Shown here piece after piece: positions 10,142 to 23,530 of a DNA stretch of 36,697 nt (within the stretch, counting starts at the first letter, position 1; each line of letters starts with the position of its first letter). This DNA comes from Synergistaceae bacterium OttesenSCG-928-D05 (GTDB taxonomy: Bacteria; Synergistota; Synergistia; Synergistales; Synergistaceae). A program made the translations under genes and the position numbers. The DNA lies in contig JAJDJB010000016.1 in NCBI GenBank assembly GCA_030266985.1, positions 1 to 36,697 of the forward strand, written 5' to 3'. Below the pieces are notes generated by a model. That model had not been told where the DNA came from. It was given only the letters and a program-made list of their open reading frames with translations, and searched no databases.

Positions 10142-11500
10142 TTGGGTATTCTAGCGGAAAACCTGCATCTTCCGGAACCGGAAGAACACGCAAAACCCTC
10201 CGAACATAATCCTCCCTTTGCCATCGATAAACCGGAGCGCGCCCGGCGGGAAGTGATCCGTGTCGTCGCAGTCGGCGGCGGCGGCGGCAACGCACTGAAC
10301 CATATCATCAGCAAGGGCCTTGAAGGGGTAGGCTTGCTCGCGGTCAATACCGACGCGCGCAGTCTGGATATGTCTTTATGCAAGGACAAAATTATCCTTG
10401 GAGAAAATGTTACGAAAGGCCTCGGCGCAGGCGCAATGCCAGAAGTGGGCGAACGCGCGGCGCGGGAGTCCCTCCCGGAAATTCGTGAGTTTTTGCGCGG
10501 TTCGGACATGGTCTATTTTACCGCGGGCATGGGCGGCGGCACCGGAACAGGGGCGCTCCCCGTCATTGCGGCGGCGGCAAAAGAAATGGGAATTCTGACC
10601 GTTGCGGTTGTGACAAAACCGTTCTTCTTTGAAGGCGCGCGCAGAAAGCGTTACGCAGAAGAAGGTATCGCGAAACTGCGGGATAATGTCGACGCGCTGA
10701 TCGTTGTACCGAACGACAGGTTGCTCGATGTTTCAAACCGCGAAACGCCGCTTAACGAAAGCTTCTCAATGGCGGACGAAGTCCTGCGGCAGGCGGTGCT
10801 CGGCGTTACGAACCTCGTAACGAAACCCGGCATGGTCAACGTCGACTTCGCGGACCTGAAGGCCGTAATGAAACAGGCAGGCCCGGCTGTCATGGGAATC
10901 GGCAGCGCTTCGGGCGAGAACAGAATCGCAAAAGCGCTTCAGCAGGCGCTCGAAAGTCCGCTTATGGAATGTTCCATGCAGGGCGCGAAAGGTGTGCTGA
11001 TGAATATCACGTGCGGAGAAGACCTTGGCATCCTTGAGATAAGCGAAGCCGCGGCACACATTGAAAATATCATCTCGGATGACGCCGTCTTCGTATGGGG
11101 ATGTGCGGAAGATCCGGATCTTGAAGGTTCTATCGAAATCGTAGTCGTTGCAACGGGCTTTGAAGAAGAAACCGGACATGCGCCCTTGCCTCCGCGGCCG
11201 AGAGCGGATGCCAACCCGTGGCGCAAGCCGCCAACTGAAAGTCTGTTTCCGCGGCATACGCCTCAGGTAGAATTTGACGTACAGGAAATCAGAGACCCCG
11301 GCGAAACGGTGCAGGAAATGCCGCCTGTGGAGCCGGAACGCCCGCGTTTGATCTCGGAAATGCTCACGGAATCCGGTCCTTCCTGGCTCGGCGAAAAAAG
11401 CGACGATGCCAAAGCGATCATTGAAAGCAAGACGAAGACAGATCAATACGATTCGCCGACGTTTTTGCGTGAAGCGCGAGCTCTTCGCAAACCCCAGTAA
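10142..11500 (+). CDS. ftsZ: Cell division GTPase FtsZ
   Basis: FtsZ polymerises with GTP into the Z-ring at the division site. The 452-residue protein starts at TTG 10142 with AGGAG 10 nt upstream. It has an unusually long N-terminal lead of about 35 residues before the GTPase core (IRVVAVGGGGGNALNHI). The tubulin signature GGGTGTG is at residues 131-137, and the T7 catalytic loop is NVDFADLKAVM. A variable, proline-rich linker of about 100 residues leads to a C-terminal peptide (QYDSPTFLREARALRKPQ) that fits the FtsA/ZipA-binding consensus. No other division gene is adjacent, so it stands outside a dcw cluster in this window. A terminator follows at 11540. Confidence 0.96.
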   Translation: MGILAENLHLPEPEEHAKPSEHNPPFAIDKPERARREVIRVVAVGGGGGNALNHIISKGLEGVGLLAVNTDARSLDMSLCKDKIILGENVTKGLGAGAMPEVGERAARESLPEIREFLRGSDMVYFTAGMGGGTGTGALPVIAAAAKEMGILTVAVVTKPFFFEGARRKRYAEEGIAKLRDNVDALIVVPNDRLLDVSNRETPLNESFSMADEVLRQAVLGVTNLVTKPGMVNVDFADLKAVMKQAGPAVMGIGSASGENRIAKALQQALESPLMECSMQGAKGVLMNITCGEDLGILEISEAAAHIENIISDDAVFVWGCAEDPDLEGSIEIVVVATGFEEETGHAPLPPRPRADANPWRKPPTESLFPRHTPQVEFDVQEIRDPGETVQEMPPVEPERPRLISEMLTESGPSWLGEKSDDAKAIIESKTKTDQYDSPTFLREARALRKPQ

Positions 11501-11795: not shown

Positions 11796-11855
11796 CTTTT
11801 ACCACTTTTTTGAGCTATTTTGAGACGAAAAAAGTTTCGGCAAGTACGCAGTCGG

Positions 11856-11864
11856 TGCTATAAT
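11856..11864 (+). promoter_or_regulatory. Extended -10 promoter element
   Basis: TGCTATAAT, identical to the element ahead of ftsZ, lies 60 nt upstream of the next start codon. The -35 position (TTCGGC) is poor, as is common with extended -10 promoters. Confidence 0.6.
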
Positions 11865-11923: not shown

Positions 11924-12427
11924 ATGTCAGCACATACAGGTGCGGAGTTTGACTACGAAATCTGCAACAGCAGGATACGCCCCATTGCAGAGGCCTTGAT
12001 TAAAAAATTCGAGGAACTTCGCCATATCGACCCGGACAAGATTCTTTTTATCGTGAACCACAAAAGCGCAGGAAGCAAAAAGCAGATGGTGCTCGCGCGT
12101 ACCAGCAGGATCTCGCCGAAATGGACGGAGCTCCTTTATCAGCTTGGCGCGGTTTCCTACTTCTATATTATTGAGTTTTACGAAAAAACGACCGCGACGA
12201 TGGACGAAAGCCAGATGGTCGCACTCGTGTACCGTGAATTGCGCCGAATCGGACCAGAGGGTGAGATTTTGACGCCGGACGTGCACGACTGGTGGCAGGT
12301 TTTGATGGGATTGGGCCGCAAGTGGTTCTATCCCGACAACAGCTGCCCGAACTTGCTGGATGACGATGTCGACTGGAAAAAACTGATGGGCACCTATTAT
12401 GACGGACCGCCGCAGGTTGCGGAATAA
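11924..12427 (+). CDS. Phage-metallopeptidase-like protein with decayed zinc motif
   Basis: A 167-residue soluble protein, ATG preceded by GGGAGGA. Its order of elements follows the putative phage metallopeptidase family (PhageMetallopep): an N-terminal helix (IRPIAEALIKKFEELRHIDPDKILFIV), a basic KSAGSKKQMVLARTSRISPKW strand region, and YIIEFYEKTT. Next comes the segment that should hold HELxH, then a distal His-Asp. Here the first site reads YRELRRIG, so both zinc histidines are Arg (Arg104, Arg108) while Glu105 and the distal His121-Asp122 remain. Hydrolysis by the standard mechanism is unlikely; a regulatory or binding role is more plausible. It is monocistronic with its own promoter and terminator. 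The family call is from remembered pattern, not a search. Confidence 0.65.
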   Translation: MSAHTGAEFDYEICNSRIRPIAEALIKKFEELRHIDPDKILFIVNHKSAGSKKQMVLARTSRISPKWTELLYQLGAVSYFYIIEFYEKTTATMDESQMVALVYRELRRIGPEGEILTPDVHDWWQVLMGLGRKWFYPDNSCPNLLDDDVDWKKLMGTYYDGPPQVAE

Positions 12428-12461: not shown

Positions 12462-12501
12462 AACAATGGCCTTGCAGGTACAAGCGAGGCCATTGTTTTT
12501 T
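12462..12501 (+). terminator. Terminator of the metallopeptidase-like gene
   Basis: An 11-bp perfect stem (AACAATGGCCT / AGGCCATTGTT) with a 14-nt loop is followed by further T residues, about 35 nt after the stop. Confidence 0.88.
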
Positions 12502-12651: not shown

Positions 12652-12676
12652 TGTGACAGCAAAAGGAGGCAAGGAT

Positions 12677-14134
12677 ATGGAAAACAGCAGCAATCTATAT
12701 GCGGCATTTAAGGCGAAAGACACGCGGTTTGACGGACGTTTCTTTGTCGGCATATCGACCACAGGAATATATTGCCGTCCGGTGTGCCGGGCGCGACAGC
12801 CTTTGGAAAAAAACTGTACATTTTTCACAACGGCGGCGGAAGCGGAACAAGCCGGATACCGCCCCTGCCTTCTCTGCCGTCCGGAACTTGCCCCCGGAAC
12901 TTCAAAGACGGACGCCAATGCGGATTTGGTTTACAGGGCGGGCAGGATGCTGGAAGAAAACTGCGGAAACGGGCTGAGCCTGGAAGCGTTGGCTAAACGA
13001 CTGGGCTGCACAGATCGGCACCTACGGCGGGTGTTCACGGCGGAATATAATGTGTCGCCGGTTCAATATCTTCAAACATGCAGATTACTCCTTGCCAAAA
13101 ACCTGCTCACTGACACAAAATTATCGGTTCTGGACGTGGCGATGGCAGCGGGGTTTGGCAGCCTGCGACGTTTCAATGATGTTTTTAAAAAGCATTACGG
13201 CCTTTCTCCAACGGATTTGCGAAAACAGGTATCCGAAGAAAAACGATACAACGGCGATGTCACGGTAGCGCTTGGATACCGTCCGCCATATCGCTGGGAA
13301 GAAATGTTGAACTTCCTTGCCGCCCGTACCATCGCTGGCGTCGATTCTGTGCGCGCTGGTGCATATTGGCGTACCGCCCATTTTGTCACCGCGGAGAACA
13401 AGCACGTTTACGGCTGGCTGCGGGTGGCCCGTCACAAGAAAAAGGACGCTTTGGTCGTTACCGTAAGCGAATCCCTATTACCCGTATTACCCCGGGTTTT
13501 GGCACGGGTTCGGCACTTGTTCGATCTGTATAGCGACCCCGATGTTATATACCAAACATTATCTGCGATGAATGATATCCGTCCAGGCTTGTGTGTTCCC
13601 GGACTTCGTTTGCCGGGAAGTTTCAATGCCTTTGAAATGGCGGTGCGAGCGGTGCTGGGGCAGCAAATTACCGTAAAAGCGGCAAGCACCTTAGCCGCAA
13701 GATTGACGGCGGCTTTCGGCATACCCGTCAATACGGGGCAGGACGGCCTGACACACGTGTTCCCTTCTCCTGCAGAAATCCTTGCTTTGGAAGGGCCGAT
13801 TGAAAGCCACTTGGGCCCGTTGGGAATTATCGCTGCACGGGCGAAAACGATCTATGAACTAGCGCGTGCATTCGCCGAGGGTGAAATTGAATTTAATCTC
13901 CCGGCCAGTCCGGAAGAAGAAATGAAAAAATTGATGGCGATTCGGGGGATCGGGAGCTGGACGGCACAGTATATTGCGATGCGCGCGATGGAATGGCCGG
14001 ACGCTTTTCTTGAAACGGACATTGGCGTCAGGAAGGCTCTTGCCCCACATACGCCGAAAGAGCTGTTGAAAATGGCGGAGGCGTGGCGTCCCTGGAGAAG
14101 TTACGCGACGATTAACCTTTGGAACGCACTGTAA
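12677..14134 (+). CDS. Ada-AlkA fusion: methylphosphotriester sensor/AraC regulator plus 3-methyladenine glycosylase
   Basis: The ATG at 12677 has AAAAGGAGG 7 nt upstream; the product is 485 residues. Residues 5-75 are the Ada zinc domain, with Cys33, Cys37, Cys64 and Cys67 (YCRPVC and PCLLC), where the first cysteine takes methyl groups from DNA phosphotriesters. An AraC-type double helix-turn-helix follows at about 90-185 (LSLEALAKRLGCTDRHLRRVF, LSVLDVAMAAGFGSLRRF). The C-terminal half is AlkA: an N-terminal AlkA domain (ALGYRPPYRW), then the HhH-GPD motif MAIRGIGSWTAQYIAMRA with catalytic Asp448 in ETDIG. It excises alkylated bases and probably activates its own operon when methylated. It is cotranscribed with ogt. 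The same fusion-plus-methyltransferase layout is known in mycobacteria. Confidence 0.93.
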   Translation: MENSSNLYAAFKAKDTRFDGRFFVGISTTGIYCRPVCRARQPLEKNCTFFTTAAEAEQAGYRPCLLCRPELAPGTSKTDANADLVYRAGRMLEENCGNGLSLEALAKRLGCTDRHLRRVFTAEYNVSPVQYLQTCRLLLAKNLLTDTKLSVLDVAMAAGFGSLRRFNDVFKKHYGLSPTDLRKQVSEEKRYNGDVTVALGYRPPYRWEEMLNFLAARTIAGVDSVRAGAYWRTAHFVTAENKHVYGWLRVARHKKKDALVVTVSESLLPVLPRVLARVRHLFDLYSDPDVIYQTLSAMNDIRPGLCVPGLRLPGSFNAFEMAVRAVLGQQITVKAASTLAARLTAAFGIPVNTGQDGLTHVFPSPAEILALEGPIESHLGPLGIIAARAKTIYELARAFAEGEIEFNLPASPEEEMKKLMAIRGIGSWTAQYIAMRAMEWPDAFLETDIGVRKALAPHTPKELLKMAEAWRPWRSYATINLWNAL

Positions 14135-14145
14135 GGAGGCGGAAC

Positions 14146-14685
14146 ATGTATTATTCAACGACGTACACGTCGCCGGTAGGTGTTATCACACTGGCGTGCG
14201 ACGGCGACAATCTTGTCGGTCTGTGGATGGAAGGACAGAAATATCACGGCGATACCATACTCGAAGAAATGATTCCGAAGAATGATATCCCCATATTCGA
14301 CACTGCCAAAAAATGGCTGGACCGGTATTTTGCCGGAGAGAAACCTGCCGTTTCGGAATTGCCGCTGGCTCCCATAGGCGGCGCGTTTCGACAAGAGGTG
14401 TGGCGCATTCTCTGTGAGATCCCTTATGGTGAGGTCATAACCTATGGCGATATCGCGAAGAAAATGGCTGTAAAGCTGAACAAACAAAGCATGTCGAGCC
14501 AGGCTGTCGGCGGCGCGGTAGGGCATAATCCCGTCTCTATCGTTATTCCGTGCCATCGTGTCGTCGGTTCCAGCGGAAGCCTGACGGGTTACGCCGGAGG
14601 CGTTGGAATTAAGAAAAAATTGCTGGAGTTGGATGGCGTCGATGTGTCTCGTTTTTTTGTGCCGACCAAAGGTACCGCGCTGTAA
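14146..14685 (+). CDS. ogt: Methylated-DNA-[protein]-cysteine S-methyltransferase
   Basis: A suicide enzyme that transfers the methyl group from O6-methylguanine to its own cysteine. The ATG at 14146 has AAGGAGG 6 nt upstream, and that site overlaps the Ada-AlkA stop codon, so translation is coupled. The 179-residue protein has the short N-terminal domain (STTYTSPVGVITLACDGDNLVGLW) and the C-terminal DNA-binding domain (FRQEVWRILCEIPYGEVITYGDIAK). The active site is PCHRVVGSSGSLTGYAGG with Cys136 as acceptor. A terminator follows at 14758. Confidence 0.95.
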   Translation: MYYSTTYTSPVGVITLACDGDNLVGLWMEGQKYHGDTILEEMIPKNDIPIFDTAKKWLDRYFAGEKPAVSELPLAPIGGAFRQEVWRILCEIPYGEVITYGDIAKKMAVKLNKQSMSSQAVGGAVGHNPVSIVIPCHRVVGSSGSLTGYAGGVGIKKKLLELDGVDVSRFFVPTKGTAL

Positions 14686-15200: not shown

Positions 15201-15355
15201 TGCTTTCAGCACCTCTCGATGAGAACTTCTGGCATCGATTATAGCGCGAAAAGAGTTTGCGGTCGAAATAAAAACGCAAAAAAATACACGGTGAAATGCG
15301 GATGTAAAAATGTCGGGTAAAGCGGATTCTTTGCGTATGCGGTAATTTTTATAAA

Positions 15356-15364
15356 TGATACAAT
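15356..15364 (+). promoter_or_regulatory. Extended -10 element ahead of the macroglobulin-pbpC operon
   Basis: TGATACAAT fits the extended -10 pattern and lies 36 nt upstream of the chosen start at 15400. No good -35 is visible. Confidence 0.4.
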
Positions 15365-15399
15365 TTATACGTTCGGAAATTAATTCGGAGGTCATGTCG

Positions 15400-18300
15400 A
15401 TGAAAAATAGACGTTTGCTTAAAAATATGCTCTTTGCGCTGATTATCATTTTGGGAGGGTTTGCCGTTTTTGGCGGCGCCGCAACCGGTTCGAACGGGAG
15501 GGATTTTATCGTACGCTCGTTCTCTCCGTCGGGTACGGTGACGGATCGAGTGCAAATTCAGGCTGTTTTTAACCGCGATGTTGTCTCAAAGGATGAAGTC
15601 GGCGAAAGCCTTGACCCAACGGAGATGCCGTTCATTTTTACACCGGCGCTTTCCGGCGAAGGCAAGTGGACGGACACGAAAACGTTTGTTTTTACGCCGC
15701 GCGGCGGTCGGCTGGAGGCTGCAACGAAATATACGGCGCTGGTGAATCCATGGCTGCGCGATCTTTCGGGACGGAAGCTTTCCGGAACGAAAACTTTTTC
15801 GTTCAACTCTCCGGCACTGGAATTTATTGGCGCGAAGCAGGTTGATTTCGACTACGGAAATCGCCGCGTGAATTATGAGCTTGCATTTTCCATGCCGGTT
15901 TCGCCCTCACGGCTTGACGGTTATCTTTCGCTTTATAACAAAGAGAGTTCGCCGCGAAGAACGATTAATTATTCACTCAAGCAGGGGCCCGTATCCACAA
16001 GCGTGATTCTTTCCATCCCGCCCTTCAACGGTACCGAGGCGGAGATGGAAATTGCGCGCGGTTTTCCGCCTGCGAACGGAACGCTCGGCCTTGAAAAAGA
16101 CGTGCAGCTGACGCTTCGCCCAGCGCTTTCCATGGTGATTCTGGATACGAATATTTCCTCCGGAACGCGCAGTGCCTCGATCAACATCGATACGAGCGCG
16201 CCGGTGGATTTTGCCAAAGCGGATTCTTTCATCGAAGTGACGCCCGAGACGAAATATACGATTGAGCCGCGGTCACGTGGATTTTCTCTTATGGGCGACT
16301 TCAAGCCGCAGGATCGTGTAACGGTCAAAATCAAAAAGGGATTCCCGTCGCTGGGCGGCTATGTGCTTGAAAACGACTGGAGCCGCGCGTTTGTCTTTCC
16401 GGACAAAGAGCCCGCAGTCGCGTTTGACGTCGCGGGGCGCGTGATTACGCCGGCGGGTTCGCTGCGTCTCCCCCTTGAGACGGTGAACGTCGAGAAGGCA
16501 GAAGTCCAAGTTTGGAAATTATACGAAAATAATATTCCAATTGCGATGCGCAGCGAATGGCAGGATTTCCCGATGGATCTTTCGAAGCTGATTTCGAGCA
16601 AGAGCTACGCGGTTGCCGGAAAACCCAACGAAACCGTACGGCGCGCGCTTGATCTGGAGCCGATCCTTGACGGCGAAAAAGGCGTTTTCCTCGTCATCGC
16701 GCGCGACGAAGAGACGGGCTGGCGGGACACGCGCACTGTCGTCAACGTAACGGACCTTGGCGTGACTGCGAAAGTCGGCCCCGAGTCCGCCTTTGTCTGG
16801 GTCAATTCGATCCGGACGGGCGAACCCGTTTACGGCGCGAAAGTGACCTTCTGGTCATGGGCGAATCAGCCCGTGGGAGAGGGCAAAACGGATCTGCGCG
16901 GCATTTGCGTCGCCGATCTTTCGGAGAGCGATAACGCGCGCCCGGTGCTTGCGACCGTTTCGCGCGGCGACGACACGGTTTTTGTCCGCCTCGACAATGG
17001 TCTTTTTCAGGGCAGCGACGAAATCGACACCTCGGGGCAGCCCTGGCTCTATCGCGGCTACTCCGCTTTCTGCTATCTGCCGCGCGGGATTTTCCGCCCC
17101 GGCGAACAGGTTTCGTTCCGCGCGATCGTGCGCGATATGGCAGGCACGCCGCCGAAACCGTTCCCCGTTACGGTGAAAATTTATTCGCCGACCGGCAAGG
17201 TGTGGACGCAGCAAACGGAAAAGCTTTCGGAGGAAGGAACCTTTTCGGTAGATTTGAATTTCCCGCAGGATGTTCCCGTTGGCACATGGTACGCATATCT
17301 TTATGCGCCGGGCAGCGACAGCCCCATCGGGCAGAAGGAATTTTTCATCGAAGAATTTGCCGCGCCGCGTTTGTTCGTGGATGCTGAGACCGACAGGCAG
17401 CAGCTGATCGGAACGGACAGTGCGATACTTAATATTTCATCACGCTACGCGTTTGGCGGCACGGCTTCCGATCTTCCATGGGAAGCGGAGATGACGCTGC
17501 GCAATAAAACCTTCCGTCCTTCCGACTGGGCAGGCTATTACTTCTACGATTCCGAGGCGCAGTTCAGCCCAGAATCGATCTTCCTTGGTTCCGGCGCACT
17601 CGACGAGGAAGGAAAAGCCGAAGCGGACGTGGAAAGCCGTACATGGGGCGCGCCTTCGATGCTGGAACTCGTGCTTCGTGCCGGCGTTATGGAAGAAGGC
17701 GGCCGCTGGGTCTACAAGACGACCCGGATGGACTGGTTCCCGCGCGAAGTAATGGTCGGCATCAATATGCCAAACAATTACCAGGTGAATAAAGCGTTCG
17801 AATTCAAAGCCGCCGCGGTTACGCCGGAAGGAAAAGCGGCGGACGTTTCAAAACTGGAATACAAGATTTTCCGGAAAGTCACTCAGTCCGTGCTTTACGA
17901 ATCGGACGGCAGAACGCAATACCGCACGCAGGTGCAGCTGATCGACCGCGCTTCCGGCGAAATCGCACTGAAAGACGGCGAAGGCGTAGTTTCCTATACG
18001 CCGACACAATCCGGCAATTATCTTGTGCGCGTGGAAGATCCGAAAAGCGGCGCGAAGGCTTCGTATAACTTCTACGTGTACGCGCCCTATTACGACGATG
18101 AAGGCGAAACGGATTCAAACCTGCCCGACCGTGTCGAGATTACAACAGACAAAGAGCTCTACAAACCCGGAGACGCGGTTCGCGTCAAACTAAAAGCGCC
18201 GTTTGCGGGGAAGGTACTGCTCGCGGTTGAGACCTACAAAGTCGTACATCGCGAAGTCCGCGAAATGAAAGGCAGCGAGGAAATCGAAATTTCGCTCCGC

Positions 18301-20778
18301 GCGAATGAATTCATGATGCCGAACGCGTGGATCACCGCGCAGGTCATAAAACCCGCGAAGGAAGAGGACGAAACAGGGCAGATGCGCGCCTATGGCGCGG
18401 CGCCGCTCATGATGGACAACAGCGACAAAAAACTCACGGTTGAAATTCCGGATATCGGCCGGATCGAACCCGGTGAGAACGAAATAAAACTGACGGTCAA
18501 GGATGCCAAGGGCAAAGGAACCGCGGCGGAAGTCACGGTGATGCTCGTTGACGAAACGGTACTTGGCCTGACCGGCTGGACGCTTCCCGATCCGTGGGGG
18601 TTCTTTACGGCGAAGCGGATGCTCGGCATGGAGACGTACGACTTGTATAACGCCATTATTTCGCCGGAAGATCAAACGACGCAGCTGTTGACAGCGGGCG
18701 GCGGCGGGATGGACGAAAACGCGATGATGAAACAGAGCCTGAATCCCGTTCAGGCGCAGCGATTTAAAATCCTATCGCTGATTCAAACGGTTCGCACGGG
18801 CAGCAATGGACAGGCTTCGGTCAAATTCGACGTGCCGGAATTTGCAGGAACGGCGCGGCTTACCGCGGTCGCCGTATCCGCGAAAGCGCTTGGCAGCGGC
18901 GACGGACCGGCGCAAATCAACAGGGACGTTGTAATCGAACCCTCGTTGCCGCGCGCGCTGGGACCGGACGACGTGCTCACTTCTCCGCTCTCCGTCTTTA
19001 ATATGACAAGCGGCGATGTGGACGTCAAAATAACCATTGCGCCGACCGGCCCGATCGCGCTTGAAGGTGAAAGAGAATTTACGCTCTCGGTAGCGGCGGG
19101 CCAAAAAGAATCGCGCATGCTCGCGTTCAAGGGCACGGGCTACGGCGTCGCGAAGGTTCTCTTTACCGCGGAGTGGCCGGGCGGCAAGATCGAAGACGAA
19201 ATCGAACTGCCGGTGCGCCCGGCGGCGCCGCGCGTGAGCGAAAACTGGTCGGCCGTTATTGAGACGGGGAAAAGCGAGAAAATCAACCTGACCGGCGACT
19301 GGTTCGCCGGCACCAAGAGCGGCCGCGTGATGCTTTCCGCCATGCCCGCAATCTCCATCGCGGACGTTGCGCAATATTTGATCACCTATCCGTACGGCTG
19401 CCTGGAACAGACGATCTCCTCCGCGTGGCCGCTGCTCTCGATGCCGGACCTTGTCGCGGCTGTAGACCCGGAACTCGCGCCGGAAGAATCTCTGAAAGGT
19501 TCGCTCATAATGCGTATCCAACGTATTAGAGGGCTCCAGAATTACGATGGCGGGTTTGCCCGCTGGCAGGGGCAGGGTTGGTCGCAGCTTTGGGACAGTC
19601 TTTACGCGACGCATTTCCTGCTGGAGGCGCAAAAGAAAGGGTTTGAGATTCCCGCTGAAAATATGAGCGCGGCGCTTAGCTATGTCCGTCGAATCCTGAC
19701 AATGGCGCCCGCTTCCGACAACGACTGGGCGTGGAAAGAAGCGCTGACGCGCCGTGCCTACGCCTGTTTCGTGCTTGCAATCGCGGGCGAGAACCAATTG
19801 GGCTGGATGTCGAATCTCAAAGACCGTGAAAAAGAATTACCGCCGTCCGCGCGCCTCTTCCTTGCCGCCGCTTACGGGGCGGCCGGGCAGAAAGCGGACG
19901 CGGAGTCGATTCTTGGCCAGAACCTTGAAGCGATTCGCATGATCCCGGGCGGCAACGACAACTACGATTCCAACCTGCGCAATAAAGCATTGCAGCTGCT
20001 TGCGTGGACCTATGCGGATCCCTCTTCCCCCTCCGCTGCGTCCGTTGCTTTTGCGCTGATCGATTCTTTTAAATCGGCGCGCTATTACAACACGCAGGAG
20101 GGCGGATTCACAACGCTTGCGCTTGCGAGATACTTTGCTGCGCAGCCCGCGGAAGGCGAACCGGCGGGTGAAATCAAAGACAGCACCGGAAAAACGCTCG
20201 CCTCTGTTTCGGTCAAAGAACGCACAGCGGCGCTCAATATCGGAGAGAACGACGCTTTTACAATGGAAAACAGCGGCAAAGCGCGGCTTTTCGCAGCGTC
20301 TACCATCAGCGGCGTGCCGACGAAGCCCGTCCAGCCCGTTGACTCAGGTATTGAAATCCGGCAGGTGTTGAAAGACCGCACCGACGATATAATTACGGAT
20401 CGCGTGCATCAGGGCGAAGCGCTGACTGCCACAGTTTCAATCAAACCGACAGCGGGAACGCTGAAAAATATCATCGCGGTCATCCCGCTTCCCGCGGGGC
20501 TTGAAGTAGAAAATCCGCGGCTCACGGGCGGAGAGGGCGAACTGCCTTACAACGCGCGCGTTGAGCTGCGCGACGACCGCATTATCCTCTTTGCCGACGT
20601 GATCAGCAGCACGCTGAAATGGGACTTCACGCTGCGCGCGGTTACTGCGGGGACGTTTGTTGTGCCGCAGATCTCCGCTGAATGTATGTACGACCCGGCT
20701 GTACAGAGCATAAACGGCGGAGGTACGCTTGAAATCATTCGCGGCGTCACAGAAGAGGATGAGGAGCCGCAAGGGTAA
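15400..20778 (+). CDS. Bacterial alpha-2-macroglobulin with thioester
   Basis: A 1792-residue surface or periplasmic protease trap. The ATG at 15400 (MKNRRLLK) is preferred over 15394 because CGGAG is 9 nt upstream. The N-terminus has a basic lead and one hydrophobic segment (NMLFALIIILGGFAVFGGAA) but no lipobox Cys, unlike E. coli YfhM, so it is a cleaved or membrane-tethered protein. A long series of macroglobulin beta domains follows. The A2M signature region is SLPRALGPDDVL, and the thioester motif CLEQ is at Cys1334-Gln1337 in PYGCLEQTISSAWPL, within the alpha-toroid helices. A C-terminal beta domain ends the protein. It is cotranscribed with pbpC, 18 nt downstream; this pairing is known in Gram-negatives and is thought to protect the envelope while PbpC repairs wall damage. 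Confidence 0.94.
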   Translation: MKNRRLLKNMLFALIIILGGFAVFGGAATGSNGRDFIVRSFSPSGTVTDRVQIQAVFNRDVVSKDEVGESLDPTEMPFIFTPALSGEGKWTDTKTFVFTPRGGRLEAATKYTALVNPWLRDLSGRKLSGTKTFSFNSPALEFIGAKQVDFDYGNRRVNYELAFSMPVSPSRLDGYLSLYNKESSPRRTINYSLKQGPVSTSVILSIPPFNGTEAEMEIARGFPPANGTLGLEKDVQLTLRPALSMVILDTNISSGTRSASINIDTSAPVDFAKADSFIEVTPETKYTIEPRSRGFSLMGDFKPQDRVTVKIKKGFPSLGGYVLENDWSRAFVFPDKEPAVAFDVAGRVITPAGSLRLPLETVNVEKAEVQVWKLYENNIPIAMRSEWQDFPMDLSKLISSKSYAVAGKPNETVRRALDLEPILDGEKGVFLVIARDEETGWRDTRTVVNVTDLGVTAKVGPESAFVWVNSIRTGEPVYGAKVTFWSWANQPVGEGKTDLRGICVADLSESDNARPVLATVSRGDDTVFVRLDNGLFQGSDEIDTSGQPWLYRGYSAFCYLPRGIFRPGEQVSFRAIVRDMAGTPPKPFPVTVKIYSPTGKVWTQQTEKLSEEGTFSVDLNFPQDVPVGTWYAYLYAPGSDSPIGQKEFFIEEFAAPRLFVDAETDRQQLIGTDSAILNISSRYAFGGTASDLPWEAEMTLRNKTFRPSDWAGYYFYDSEAQFSPESIFLGSGALDEEGKAEADVESRTWGAPSMLELVLRAGVMEEGGRWVYKTTRMDWFPREVMVGINMPNNYQVNKAFEFKAAAVTPEGKAADVSKLEYKIFRKVTQSVLYESDGRTQYRTQVQLIDRASGEIALKDGEGVVSYTPTQSGNYLVRVEDPKSGAKASYNFYVYAPYYDDEGETDSNLPDRVEITTDKELYKPGDAVRVKLKAPFAGKVLLAVETYKVVHREVREMKGSEEIEISLRANEFMMPNAWITAQVIKPAKEEDETGQMRAYGAAPLMMDNSDKKLTVEIPDIGRIEPGENEIKLTVKDAKGKGTAAEVTVMLVDETVLGLTGWTLPDPWGFFTAKRMLGMETYDLYNAIISPEDQTTQLLTAGGGGMDENAMMKQSLNPVQAQRFKILSLIQTVRTGSNGQASVKFDVPEFAGTARLTAVAVSAKALGSGDGPAQINRDVVIEPSLPRALGPDDVLTSPLSVFNMTSGDVDVKITIAPTGPIALEGEREFTLSVAAGQKESRMLAFKGTGYGVAKVLFTAEWPGGKIEDEIELPVRPAAPRVSENWSAVIETGKSEKINLTGDWFAGTKSGRVMLSAMPAISIADVAQYLITYPYGCLEQTISSAWPLLSMPDLVAAVDPELAPEESLKGSLIMRIQRIRGLQNYDGGFARWQGQGWSQLWDSLYATHFLLEAQKKGFEIPAENMSAALSYVRRILTMAPASDNDWAWKEALTRRAYACFVLAIAGENQLGWMSNLKDREKELPPSARLFLAAAYGAAGQKADAESILGQNLEAIRMIPGGNDNYDSNLRNKALQLLAWTYADPSSPSAASVAFALIDSFKSARYYNTQEGGFTTLALARYFAAQPAEGEPAGEIKDSTGKTLASVSVKERTAALNIGENDAFTMENSGKARLFAASTISGVPTKPVQPVDSGIEIRQVLKDRTDDIITDRVHQGEALTATVSIKPTAGTLKNIIAVIPLPAGLEVENPRLTGGEGELPYNARVELRDDRIILFADVISSTLKWDFTLRAVTAGTFVVPQISAECMYDPAVQSINGGGTLEIIRGVTEEDEEPQG

Positions 20779-20796: not shown

Positions 20797-23091
20797 TTGA
20801 CGCAGTTGAAAAACATTCGGCGTTTTACGGCAAAAATTAAAGAAATGGCGGGCAAGCGCAGCGGAAACGCCGCCGCGCTTGCCTTGCTGTTTTGTTCATT
20901 GTTTCTTCTTTATATAACCTTCCCCTTTGACGCGGTCTTGAAACGGCCGGCATCGCTTGTTGTCACGGACAGGAGCGGTTTTGCAATGCGCGGCACGCTT
21001 TCCACAGACGGCGAATGGCGGCTCCCCATCCCCTATGAAGAGATGGGCAAATGGATGCCTGCTGTCGTTGTCGCGTTGGAGGACCGCCGTTTTTGGACGC
21101 ATAGCGGCGTCGACCTGCCCGCAATTTTCAGGGCGGTTTTGCAAAACAGGGACGAAGGCAGGGTCGTTTCGGGCGGCTCGACGATAACGAGCCAGGTAAT
21201 CCGCCTTTCGATCGACCGCGACAGAACGCCAATCAATAAAGCGAAGGAATTTTGGCAGGCGTCCGTACTGGAGCTCTTTCAAACGAAACGCGAAATCCTT
21301 GAAACCTATCTCAATATCACGCCGTACGGCGGCAATATCCGCGGCGTTGAAGCGGCTTCACTCACATGGTTTGGAAAACATGCAAAAGATATCTCGCTTG
21401 CCGAAGCGGCGCTGCTCGCGGGAATCCTGCGCGGCCCCTCCGTTTACAGGCCGGACCGGCATCCGGAGCGAGCCAGGGAGCTGCGTGACCGCCTGATAGA
21501 CACACTTCTGGAACGCGGCGTGGCAACGGACGAGGAAGTGAGACGCGCGAAACAGGAACCCTTGCCCAGCGAAAAACGGGCGCTTCCAGCCTATTTTATG
21601 CAGGCCGCCTCACGTGCGGCGCGGACTTCCGATGTATGGCGCATGACCGACCGTTACGGACGCCTGCGTTCGACAATTGAAATGGAAAAACAGTATGCGC
21701 TGCAAACGGAGCTTTCGAACACGCTTGCGACGATGGATCCGGGAATAACTGGCGCAGCGGTGCTTGTTGAAAACGAAACGGGCGCGGTGCGCGGTTACAT
21801 TGGAAACGCAAAAGAAGGCTGGAATATTGACGCGGCGTGGGTCGACTGCGCTTCGTCGCCGCGATCGCCCGGATCCACGCTGAAACCATTCGTTTACGCG
21901 CTTGCGTTTGAATCCGGCGAATTAACGCCCGCCTCCATGCTTGCCGATGCCGGCTCTGGAGACGGCCCCCGTAACTTCGACCGGATGTTTAGGGGGCCGG
22001 TCTCGGCCAGGACTGCGCTTGCGGACTCTCTGAACGTTCCCGCAGTTCGCGTTTTTCGCATGCAAGGAGGGCGTAAAACGCTTGACCTATATAGACGTCT
22101 CTCTTTTTCCCATTTCCGAAAAGACGCAGATTGGTATGGCGACAGTTTGGTCCTCGGCGGATGCGAAGTGACGGCGCTCGAACTTGCACGCGCATACCGT
22201 ACGCTTGCAAACCGCGGCGTCGACACGCCGCTCGTTTGGGCGGAAGGCGCCGAAGCCGAACATAAAACGCAAGTTTTAAGCGAAGAATCTTCCGCGCTCG
22301 CACTGGACGTGCTGAAAGATACGCGCCGCCTGCTGCCGCTTTATAACGAAATCTTTGGAGAAGACGGTACGGTTATTGCCTTTAAAACGGGAACCTCTTA
22401 CGGACGGCGTGACGCCTGGACGGCGGCGGTGACCTCAAAATACACGCTGGTCGTCTGGTACGGCGATCCGGCGGGGCGCCCGCACTATCCGCTGGTCGGA
22501 ATCAACACGGCGGCCCCTTCCGCCATCCGGATTCTGCGGAAAATCACGCCGCAGGGCACAAAATGGTTCGATCTGCCGAAAGGCGTCGCGCGCGGCCCGG
22601 TATGCCCTCTGTCAGGTGCGCTGCGGAATCAATGGTGCCCGCAAAGCATAGAAGAACTTTACATCGAAAAAATTTCCCGCCGCGAACCTTGCAAACTGCA
22701 CGCGTTTGAAAAGGGAAGTATCGTTATTAAATGGCCGCCGGAACTTGAAAATTACTTCAAGCGAGACGACGCTCCGCAGGAGTCGCAGCGCAGACTGCGC
22801 ATTACATCGATATTACCGAACGCTTCATACTTGATGCGGACGGAAAAAGAACGCCTGGAACTTGCTGCCGCCGGAGGCGGGGGCGAGCTGTTCTGGTTCG
22901 TGGACGGCGAATATTTTGACTCAAGCGGCCCGTCGCGCGAACGCCCAGTTTTCTGGCCGATGTCCGAGGGTACGCACCGCATCACAGCCGCCGACGAACG
23001 CGGCGCAGAGATGAGCGTGACGTTTCGTGTACGCAAATCAGGAGCCATCCGCAGCGACGAAGACCTTCCCCTGCTGGAAGAAACGCCCTAA
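20797..23091 (+). CDS. pbpC: Penicillin-binding protein 1C
   Basis: A 764-residue bifunctional peptidoglycan synthase anchored by one N-terminal helix (AAALALLFCSLFLLYITF). The GT51 glycosyltransferase domain spans about residues 60-240, with catalytic Glu95 in ALEDRRFW and the GGSTITSQ motif. The transpeptidase domain has Ser360 and Lys363 (PGSTLKPF), the SxN motif at 411-413 (SLN) and KTG at 530-532 (FKTGTSYGRRDAW). The C-terminal 90 residues are the BiPBP_C domain diagnostic of PbpC. The TTG at 20797 lacks a good ribosome site, and ATG at 20845 is an alternative; either keeps the membrane anchor. Translation is probably coupled to the upstream macroglobulin gene. Confidence 0.95.
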   Translation: MTQLKNIRRFTAKIKEMAGKRSGNAAALALLFCSLFLLYITFPFDAVLKRPASLVVTDRSGFAMRGTLSTDGEWRLPIPYEEMGKWMPAVVVALEDRRFWTHSGVDLPAIFRAVLQNRDEGRVVSGGSTITSQVIRLSIDRDRTPINKAKEFWQASVLELFQTKREILETYLNITPYGGNIRGVEAASLTWFGKHAKDISLAEAALLAGILRGPSVYRPDRHPERARELRDRLIDTLLERGVATDEEVRRAKQEPLPSEKRALPAYFMQAASRAARTSDVWRMTDRYGRLRSTIEMEKQYALQTELSNTLATMDPGITGAAVLVENETGAVRGYIGNAKEGWNIDAAWVDCASSPRSPGSTLKPFVYALAFESGELTPASMLADAGSGDGPRNFDRMFRGPVSARTALADSLNVPAVRVFRMQGGRKTLDLYRRLSFSHFRKDADWYGDSLVLGGCEVTALELARAYRTLANRGVDTPLVWAEGAEAEHKTQVLSEESSALALDVLKDTRRLLPLYNEIFGEDGTVIAFKTGTSYGRRDAWTAAVTSKYTLVVWYGDPAGRPHYPLVGINTAAPSAIRILRKITPQGTKWFDLPKGVARGPVCPLSGALRNQWCPQSIEELYIEKISRREPCKLHAFEKGSIVIKWPPELENYFKRDDAPQESQRRLRITSILPNASYLMRTEKERLELAAAGGGGELFWFVDGEYFDSSGPSRERPVFWPMSEGTHRITAADERGAEMSVTFRVRKSGAIRSDEDLPLLEETP

Positions 23092-23208: not shown

Positions 23209-23493
23209 CATCGTGAATAATTGTAAAGGCGATGAAGAAGAGGAGTACGTTTTCCTGAAAGCACAGAGAGAAGATGGTTGGTGAAAATCTTCGAGCAGGG
23301 ATTGCGGAAGCGGCTTCTGAGCTATGGACCGAACGACGTAAGTTCAGTAGGCGCCATCGGGATTCCGCCCGTTACAGCGGAGACGACATCGGGCGAACGC
23401 CCTGTGTTGGATGAGCGCGAAGCGTAACGCTTCGAATTTAGGTGGTACCGCGGAAAATATTTCGCCCTAGACAAAAGTCTGGGGCGTTTTTTG
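23209..23493 (+). promoter_or_regulatory. T-box leader, probably alanine-specific
   Basis: The leader shows the T-box signature AGGTGGTACCGCGG at 23440-23453, a stem I start with GATGAAGAAGAGGAGTA, and a small stem III (GCGAAGCG TAA CGCTTCG). It ends in a terminator: arms CGCCCTAGAC / GTCTGGGGCG at 23463-23486 and six T residues. In the specifier region (GGAAGCGGCTTCTGAG) the codon lying five bases before TGAG is GCG (23310-23312), an alanine codon. The bulge UGGU pairs with an ACCA tRNA end, and tRNA-Ala has discriminator A. Uncharged tRNA would favour the antiterminator and switch on the downstream alanine aminotransferase. The codon call rests on alignment by eye. Confidence 0.85.
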
Positions 23494-23530
23494 TTTGCCG
23501 CTTTTTGAGCGGCTGAGACTGGGGGTTCTT

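Follow-up and report, generated by a model that had tools for sequence, protein, structure and literature searches.

A PhageMetallopep-type protein of Synergistaceae that has lost its zinc ligands and is often encoded beside a second ftsZ gene

Introduction

What is a protein built like a metallopeptidase doing when the histidines of its zinc site have become arginines, and does its place next to an ftsZ gene say anything about its role? The question is raised by an open reading frame (ORF) at positions 11924–12427 on the forward strand of a 36,697-nucleotide contig from Synergistaceae bacterium OttesenSCG-928-D05 (JAJDJB010000016.1, assembly GCA_030266985.1), the whole of which was analyzed and is called the window here. 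The ORF encodes 167 amino acids with a predicted PF18894-type zincin fold and a degenerate site that reads RExxR and, further on, PD; we call it the RExxR gene. An original prediction, made from the window alone, described it as a metallopeptidase-like protein that may be under selection for a non-hydrolytic role.

Results

The ORF is intact, begins with ATG and has a good ribosome-binding site, with the Shine-Dalgarno-like sequence GGGAGGAA ahead of the start. Its product matches the Pfam family PhageMetallopep (PF18894) over residues 13–155 (90.9 bits, E = 9.8e-26; cut-off 23.7), and it is the single PF18894 gene found in the genome assembly (107 contigs, completeness 67%). The protein also matches phrog_11269, a PHROGs family of unknown function (E = 1.1e-13), and has no match in NCBIfam; a search of the PDB by sequence, with a 53-row alignment of Synergistota homologs as query, gave no match at E 10. 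Inspection of the N terminus by eye revealed nothing resembling a signal peptide.

The gene had been credited with its own promoter and terminator. The terminator is borne out by an intrinsic terminator-like hairpin at 12462–12497 (+), with a 14-bp stem and an 8-nt loop, whose folding energy of −23.1 kcal/mol (z −7.1) was equaled in 0 of 200 shuffles; a consensus terminator scan did not list this hairpin. For the promoter, a candidate is present at 11837–11864 (+), TCGGCA-16-TATAAT with TG before the −10 element, but it is weak, and the consensus scan that found it returned 2 sites, this one included, versus 1.5 in shuffles.

At the former zinc motif the window protein reads Y103-R104-E105-L106-R107-R108-I109-G110. 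The codons of R104 to R108, where canonical members have H-E-L-x-H, lie at 12233–12247 (+), with CGT, GAA and CGA at positions 104, 105 and 108, so both motif histidines are indeed arginine and the glutamate is kept, as predicted. His121-Asp122 had been taken for the retained distal His-Asp pair, which proved to be an alignment error of three residues. MAFFT alignment of the Synergistota proteins to 75 distinct viral members of canonical type put the canonical H-H-H-D columns on R104, R108, P118 and D119 of the window. Column 118 holds His in 75 of 75 canonical members versus Pro in 52 and Tyr in 1 of 53 Synergistota proteins, and column 119 holds Asp in all 75 and all 53. Alignment of the two profiles by hhalign, an independent method, gave the same pairing, with ‘ILTPDVHDWW’ opposite ‘IVPHDIEDFS’. 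His121-Asp122 thus stands three residues past P118-D119 (codons 12275–12280, +), opposite the Glu-Asp of canonical ‘HDIEDF’, and the canonical residues at position 121 are E (68), Q (4), T (2) and N (1). As a kept ligand pair, His121-Asp122 was rejected on both alignments. Since the family's HD aligns to P118-D119, substitutions have removed three of three zinc ligands (H104R, H108R and H118P), one beyond the two noticed earlier.

The replacement is shared across the clade. R-E-x-x-R together with Pro-Asp at the third-ligand position occurs in 48 of 55 Synergistota homologs, and none of the 55 has both motif histidines. Position 104 is R in 52, H in 2 and S in 1; position 108 is R in 50, K in 2, and T, S or Q in 1 each; position 118 is P in 54 and Y in 1. 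The two proteins that have the first motif histidine, from genomes G165 and G019, carry R or K at the second position and P at the third. Position 121 varies (H 43, N 11, Q 1), as does 122 (D 36, E 19). E105, L106, R107, D119 and W123 are invariant in all 55, E105 being the general base of an active zinc peptidase. The protein is almost certainly not a zinc peptidase. Could it still be an enzyme of another chemistry, a hydrolase whose site is made up of Glu105, Asp119 and Arg107 and either lacks a metal or is metallated differently? Such a site would account for five invariant residues beside a second-ligand position that drifts among R, K, T, S and Q, and the invariant Glu105 and Asp119 exceed what a plain scaffold would seem to need, which counts against a pure binding role. 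The same tolerance at position 108 speaks against a catalytic site, however, as does Pro at 118 in 54 of 55, and we know of no zincin that functions without a histidine zinc site. We regard continued catalysis as quite improbable.

How widely is the gene held, and is it under selection? PF18894 matches above the cut-off were found in 53 of 185 Synergistota genomes as 55 ORFs, genomes G134 and G144 carrying two each; two matches below the cut-off (a second place in G123, and G104) were excluded from the 55. In f1, the family to which the window belongs, 46 of 52 genomes carry the gene, as do 3 of 4 in family-level group f4 and 4 of 4 in f5; the other Synergistota groups have 0. In a separate scan, 37 of 37 named loci were from Synergistota. 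Alignment A1 holds 53 of the 55 homologs, the identical L035 and L050 having been dropped, and all 53 members match PF18894. The gene is chromosomal and has been kept by descent in the Synergistaceae-type family and in two groups of family level that are its sisters, with 55–88% protein identity to the window ORF across genera. A recent loss of the motif in a single gene was rejected, as 0 of 55 orthologs have both histidines.

In 24 pairs with dS < 0.85, dN/dS ranged from 0.010 to 0.145 (Nei-Gojobori; 43 of 55 sequences given). Because dN/dS is 0.01–0.15 in such close pairs, the gene is functional and under strong purifying selection. One might still read it as a decaying or neutral prophage-gene remnant, given that the catalytic site is lost and that 6 of 52 own-family genomes lack the gene. 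These dN/dS values, the 55–88% identity across the clade and the lack of an internal stop in any listed Synergistota match leave that reading a negligible chance, and a remnant without selection was in practical terms rejected on dN/dS alone. The clade-wide RExxR, the modeled zincin fold described below and dN/dS far below 1 support the prediction that the fold was repurposed and selected for a non-hydrolytic role.

Relatives beyond the clade do keep HExxH. In a search that extended to other phyla (389 genomes), the PF18894 family turned up at E 1e-5 in nine genomes from outside Synergistota, and HE-x-x-H is kept in 9 of 9 of their ORFs; we infer that HExxH is ancestral to the RExxR form. Among viruses, 80 of 114 stretches were used; as the search pattern required HELxH and HD, these 80 loci show the layout and cannot give the frequency of HExxH. 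A canonical ORF is present in 80 of 80, with a PF18894 match in 15 of 15 scanned, and the set reduces to 75 distinct rows for the alignment and 66 for the tree. The A1 profile matches 15 canonical viral members with a probability of 99.3 and E = 4e-20 (hhalign). By sequence, then, the Synergistota protein descends from PF18894, and the label ‘metallopeptidase’ does not apply to it.

The only close phage relative of the RExxR protein found by sequence is gp132 of Bacillus phage G (E = 0.1); no close plasmid relative was found. Phage G (JN638751) has three PF18894 proteins above the cut-off, gp132 (75990–76466), gp149 (86493–86951) and gp231 (162585–162992), scoring 33.4, 23.9 and 58.3 bits. All are without HExxH, reading YSEMRKI/PD, YKILRQI/PN and FEQLLHI/YD, respectively, and gp132, with Y-S-E-M-R-K-I and P-D-V-H, closely resembles the Synergistota form. 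It lies 2.2 kb and five genes from gp138 (78686–79816), annotated as FtsZ-like (Tubulin, 65 bits). A tree built without the motif columns places the phage G proteins on the side of Synergistota, with long branches. The likeness may be convergence, and the proximity of gp132 and gp138 may be chance.

A second, divergent RExxR copy in G134 (L037 4968–5471) has Tyr at the third-ligand position, like gp231, and a ParA-type ATPase gene lies just downstream (L037 5710–6516). In G172, at most 2 kb separates the RExxR gene from a ParB gene (L057 5546–6517). G134, G135, G170 and G172 are single-contig genomes, and in each the RExxR gene is at most 40 kb from a contig end, perhaps near the origin.

Could the protein be a phage factor that derives from a peptidase and is retained as a decoy or as part of an anti-phage defense, with an incidental place in the chromosome? 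Such an origin would fit the wide occurrence of the family in viral contigs, the three degenerate copies in phage G and the second copy of G134 beside a parA gene. The Synergistota form itself, however, was found in viral_contigs neither by peptide patterns nor by a degenerate DNA pattern, and its vertical pattern and fixed neighborhood across genera do not suit a decoy. We find this very hard to credit.

The predicted fold supports the family assignment. An AlphaFold2 model of the RExxR protein (53 sequences) has pLDDT 78.2 and pTM 0.78. Among viral models, Foldseek matches it best to Gp231, Gp149 and Gp132 of phage G (E = 4e-9 to 4e-7), all of PF18894; Foldseek against the PDB gave no match at E 0.001. 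VIA-align against the PDB placed selecase 4qhh (Z 6.8; 2.6 Å over 72 residues) and Spartan 6mdx (Z 5.8) near the top along with HtpX and abylysin, and P. abyssi 4jiu scored Z 6.0. A model of the canonical family retrieves the same PDB proteins, selecase with Z 8.5. The middling Z-scores of the RExxR model agree with a zincin fold, and the order of secondary elements is the same in the RExxR and canonical models, in line with the original prediction. An unrelated fold was not what the modeling returned.

What of the neighboring ftsZ? The gene upstream of the RExxR ORF, at 10142–11500 (+), encodes FtsZ2, a second FtsZ paralog (Tubulin, 154.7 bits; FtsZ_C, 100.1 bits). The other ftsZ of the genome, on contig C43, follows genes for a Mur ligase, MurB and FtsA in a dcw-type cluster. 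Downstream of the RExxR gene are a small reverse ORF and, further on, genes for a bacterial alpha-2-macroglobulin (15355–20778, +) and a penicillin-binding protein of the PBP1C type with Transgly, Transpeptidase and BiPBP_C domains (20797–23091, +). Between the RExxR and macroglobulin genes the window also has an alkylation-repair pair, a fusion of Ada-type zinc/AraC domains with an AlkA-like glycosylase (12653–14134) and an Ogt-type methyltransferase (14119–14685). An aminotransferase gene at 23495 is immediately preceded by a T-box leader (Rfam RF00230, 120.7 bits) at 23223–23472.

With the window counted, 33 of 55 loci have FtsZ2 encoded upstream in the same orientation (32 of 54 others, 29 of these 32 within 1.4 kb); three loci end at a contig edge just upstream of the RExxR gene. 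In G123 the FtsZ2 ORF (L038 3911–4957) overlaps the RExxR ORF. This FtsZ2 stops after 348 amino acids, without the usual C-terminal tail. In an FtsZ tree of 88 different rows, built without duplicate loci and without three long rows (L038, L053 and L130), all 31 RExxR-linked FtsZ proteins and 10 unlinked own-family FtsZ proteins form one group with SH-aLRT 99, which excludes the copies of other families as well as the second FtsZ of f4 genomes; an earlier 74-row tree that included the long rows did not resolve the linked FtsZ proteins as one clade with certainty. The linked ftsZ is a second, family-specific paralog. The adjacency to ftsZ is thus real and kept in many genera, but it concerns the paralog, and the link is missing in f4, in f5 and in several genera of f1.

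Does the RExxR gene follow FtsZ2? Among the 52 own-family genomes, 44 have both the RExxR gene and two FtsZ, 2 the RExxR gene only, 3 two FtsZ only and 3 neither (Fisher p = 0.008), a co-occurrence that is weak because neighbors vanish together with one missing contig of a metagenome-assembled genome (MAG) and because the genomes are related. The RExxR gene occurs without FtsZ2 in f4 and f5 genomes and in G164 (100% completeness, one FtsZ), and G141, G146 and G168 (MAGs, 72–92% complete) have two FtsZ but lack the RExxR gene. Specific co-evolution with FtsZ2 was not found among 23 genomes (partial r 0.25 for FtsZ2 versus 0.33 for FtsZ1). Nor is the adjacency special, since gene order is conserved for other neighbors too, namely an AI-2E-type transporter and the macroglobulin.

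The macroglobulin gene follows on the same strand in 23 of 55 loci including the window (22 of 54 others, two as ORF fragments). In 16 of the 22 non-window loci the gap is at most 176 nt, and several gaps of 19–50 nt are operon-like. In other genera the macroglobulin comes directly after the RExxR gene; in the window the DNA-repair genes intervene. Both flanks, FtsZ2 and macroglobulin, are present in 12 of 54 loci. It is conceivable that the pseudo-peptidase works with the macroglobulin/PBP1C envelope group or another partner and that ftsZ2 is a positional neighbor only. The same-strand macroglobulin, its short gaps and its linkage even in genera where FtsZ2 has moved away fit such an arrangement. 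Alpha-2-macroglobulin and penicillin-binding proteins are expected outside the cytoplasm, however, and the RExxR protein is without a visible signal sequence; moreover, neither FtsZ2 nor macroglobulin was found in the fetched flanks of the f4 and f5 loci and of several f1 loci. Overall, we judge this arrangement rather unlikely.

Discussion

The explanation that we consider likely is that the RExxR gene encodes a cytoplasmic pseudo-peptidase whose zinc ligands have been lost, which would bind rather than cut, and whose partner would belong to the envelope/division gene group. The old zincin substrate cleft would be kept and would hold a protein or peptide without cleaving it. R104, R108 and P118 would replace the metal site; E105 and D119, both retained, would be salt-bridge partners, and a cluster of salt bridges between them and R104/R108 probably occupies the former place of the metal. 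That the partner lies within the cell-envelope/division gene group is the weaker part of this explanation, and an envelope role for the protein is plausible.

The best candidate partner would be FtsZ2, encoded just upstream. Taken by itself, a partnership with FtsZ2 is a tentative idea that we hold with some doubt, because the RExxR gene is more widely distributed than FtsZ2, because distances track FtsZ1 equally and because the surroundings are generally syntenic. A bolder version is also possible: a phage-type zinc peptidase whose entire metal site was lost, with a charged Arg-Glu-Arg/Asp cluster fixed there instead, may have become a dedicated cytoplasmic partner of FtsZ2, with phage G as a parallel or shared case and PF18894 pseudo-peptidases as a class of cofactors for tubulin-family proteins. 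We think this unlikely.

The RExxR clade may add a bacterial case to the pseudo-metallopeptidases, one in which all zinc ligands are lost under strong selection within a family whose name reflects nothing more than a putative peptidase activity. Since the ligands were lost under such selection, it is misleading to transfer the annotation ‘phage metallopeptidase’ to these proteins. Should the neighborhood be functional, it would offer a direct handle on the role of the second FtsZ in Synergistaceae. A literature search by the Pfam name PhageMetallopep found no paper and one by the accession PF18894 found a single paper, on Burkholderia prophages; in a review of pseudo-metallopeptidases (PMC11266112), the word ‘phage’ is absent from the main text.

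How does the RExxR protein compare with known systems? With PhageMetallopep (PF18894) it shares homology over the whole domain, the order of secondary elements, the Glu of the motif and the Asp that follows the third ligand; unlike canonical members, it is bacterial and chromosomal, lacks the three zinc ligands and has Trp123 for the canonical Phe. The degenerate copies of phage G resemble it in exceeding the PF18894 cut-off without HExxH, but they are phage-borne, Glu105 is lost in two of three and identity among the rows is 22–30%. The closest solved folds are selecase and the minimal archaeal zincins (M. jannaschii 4qhh and P. abyssi 4jiu), at about 12% identity. Both are HExxH metallopeptidases, unlike the RExxR protein.

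Two copies of FtsZ in Synergistetes have already been published (PMC8178401, Fig. 5 legend), as have extra FtsZ copies outside the dcw cluster in other bacteria (PMC9871819); the portions of these accounts that we draw on do not mention an RExxR neighbor. For the proposed mode of action, the LytM pseudo-peptidases may offer an analogy of working principle only, and no homology is claimed. LytM domains have a different peptidase fold and are located outside the cytoplasm. In EnvC, NlpD and DipM, a catalytically dead metallopeptidase domain of this kind serves as a division regulator (PMC8416486, PMC10336132).
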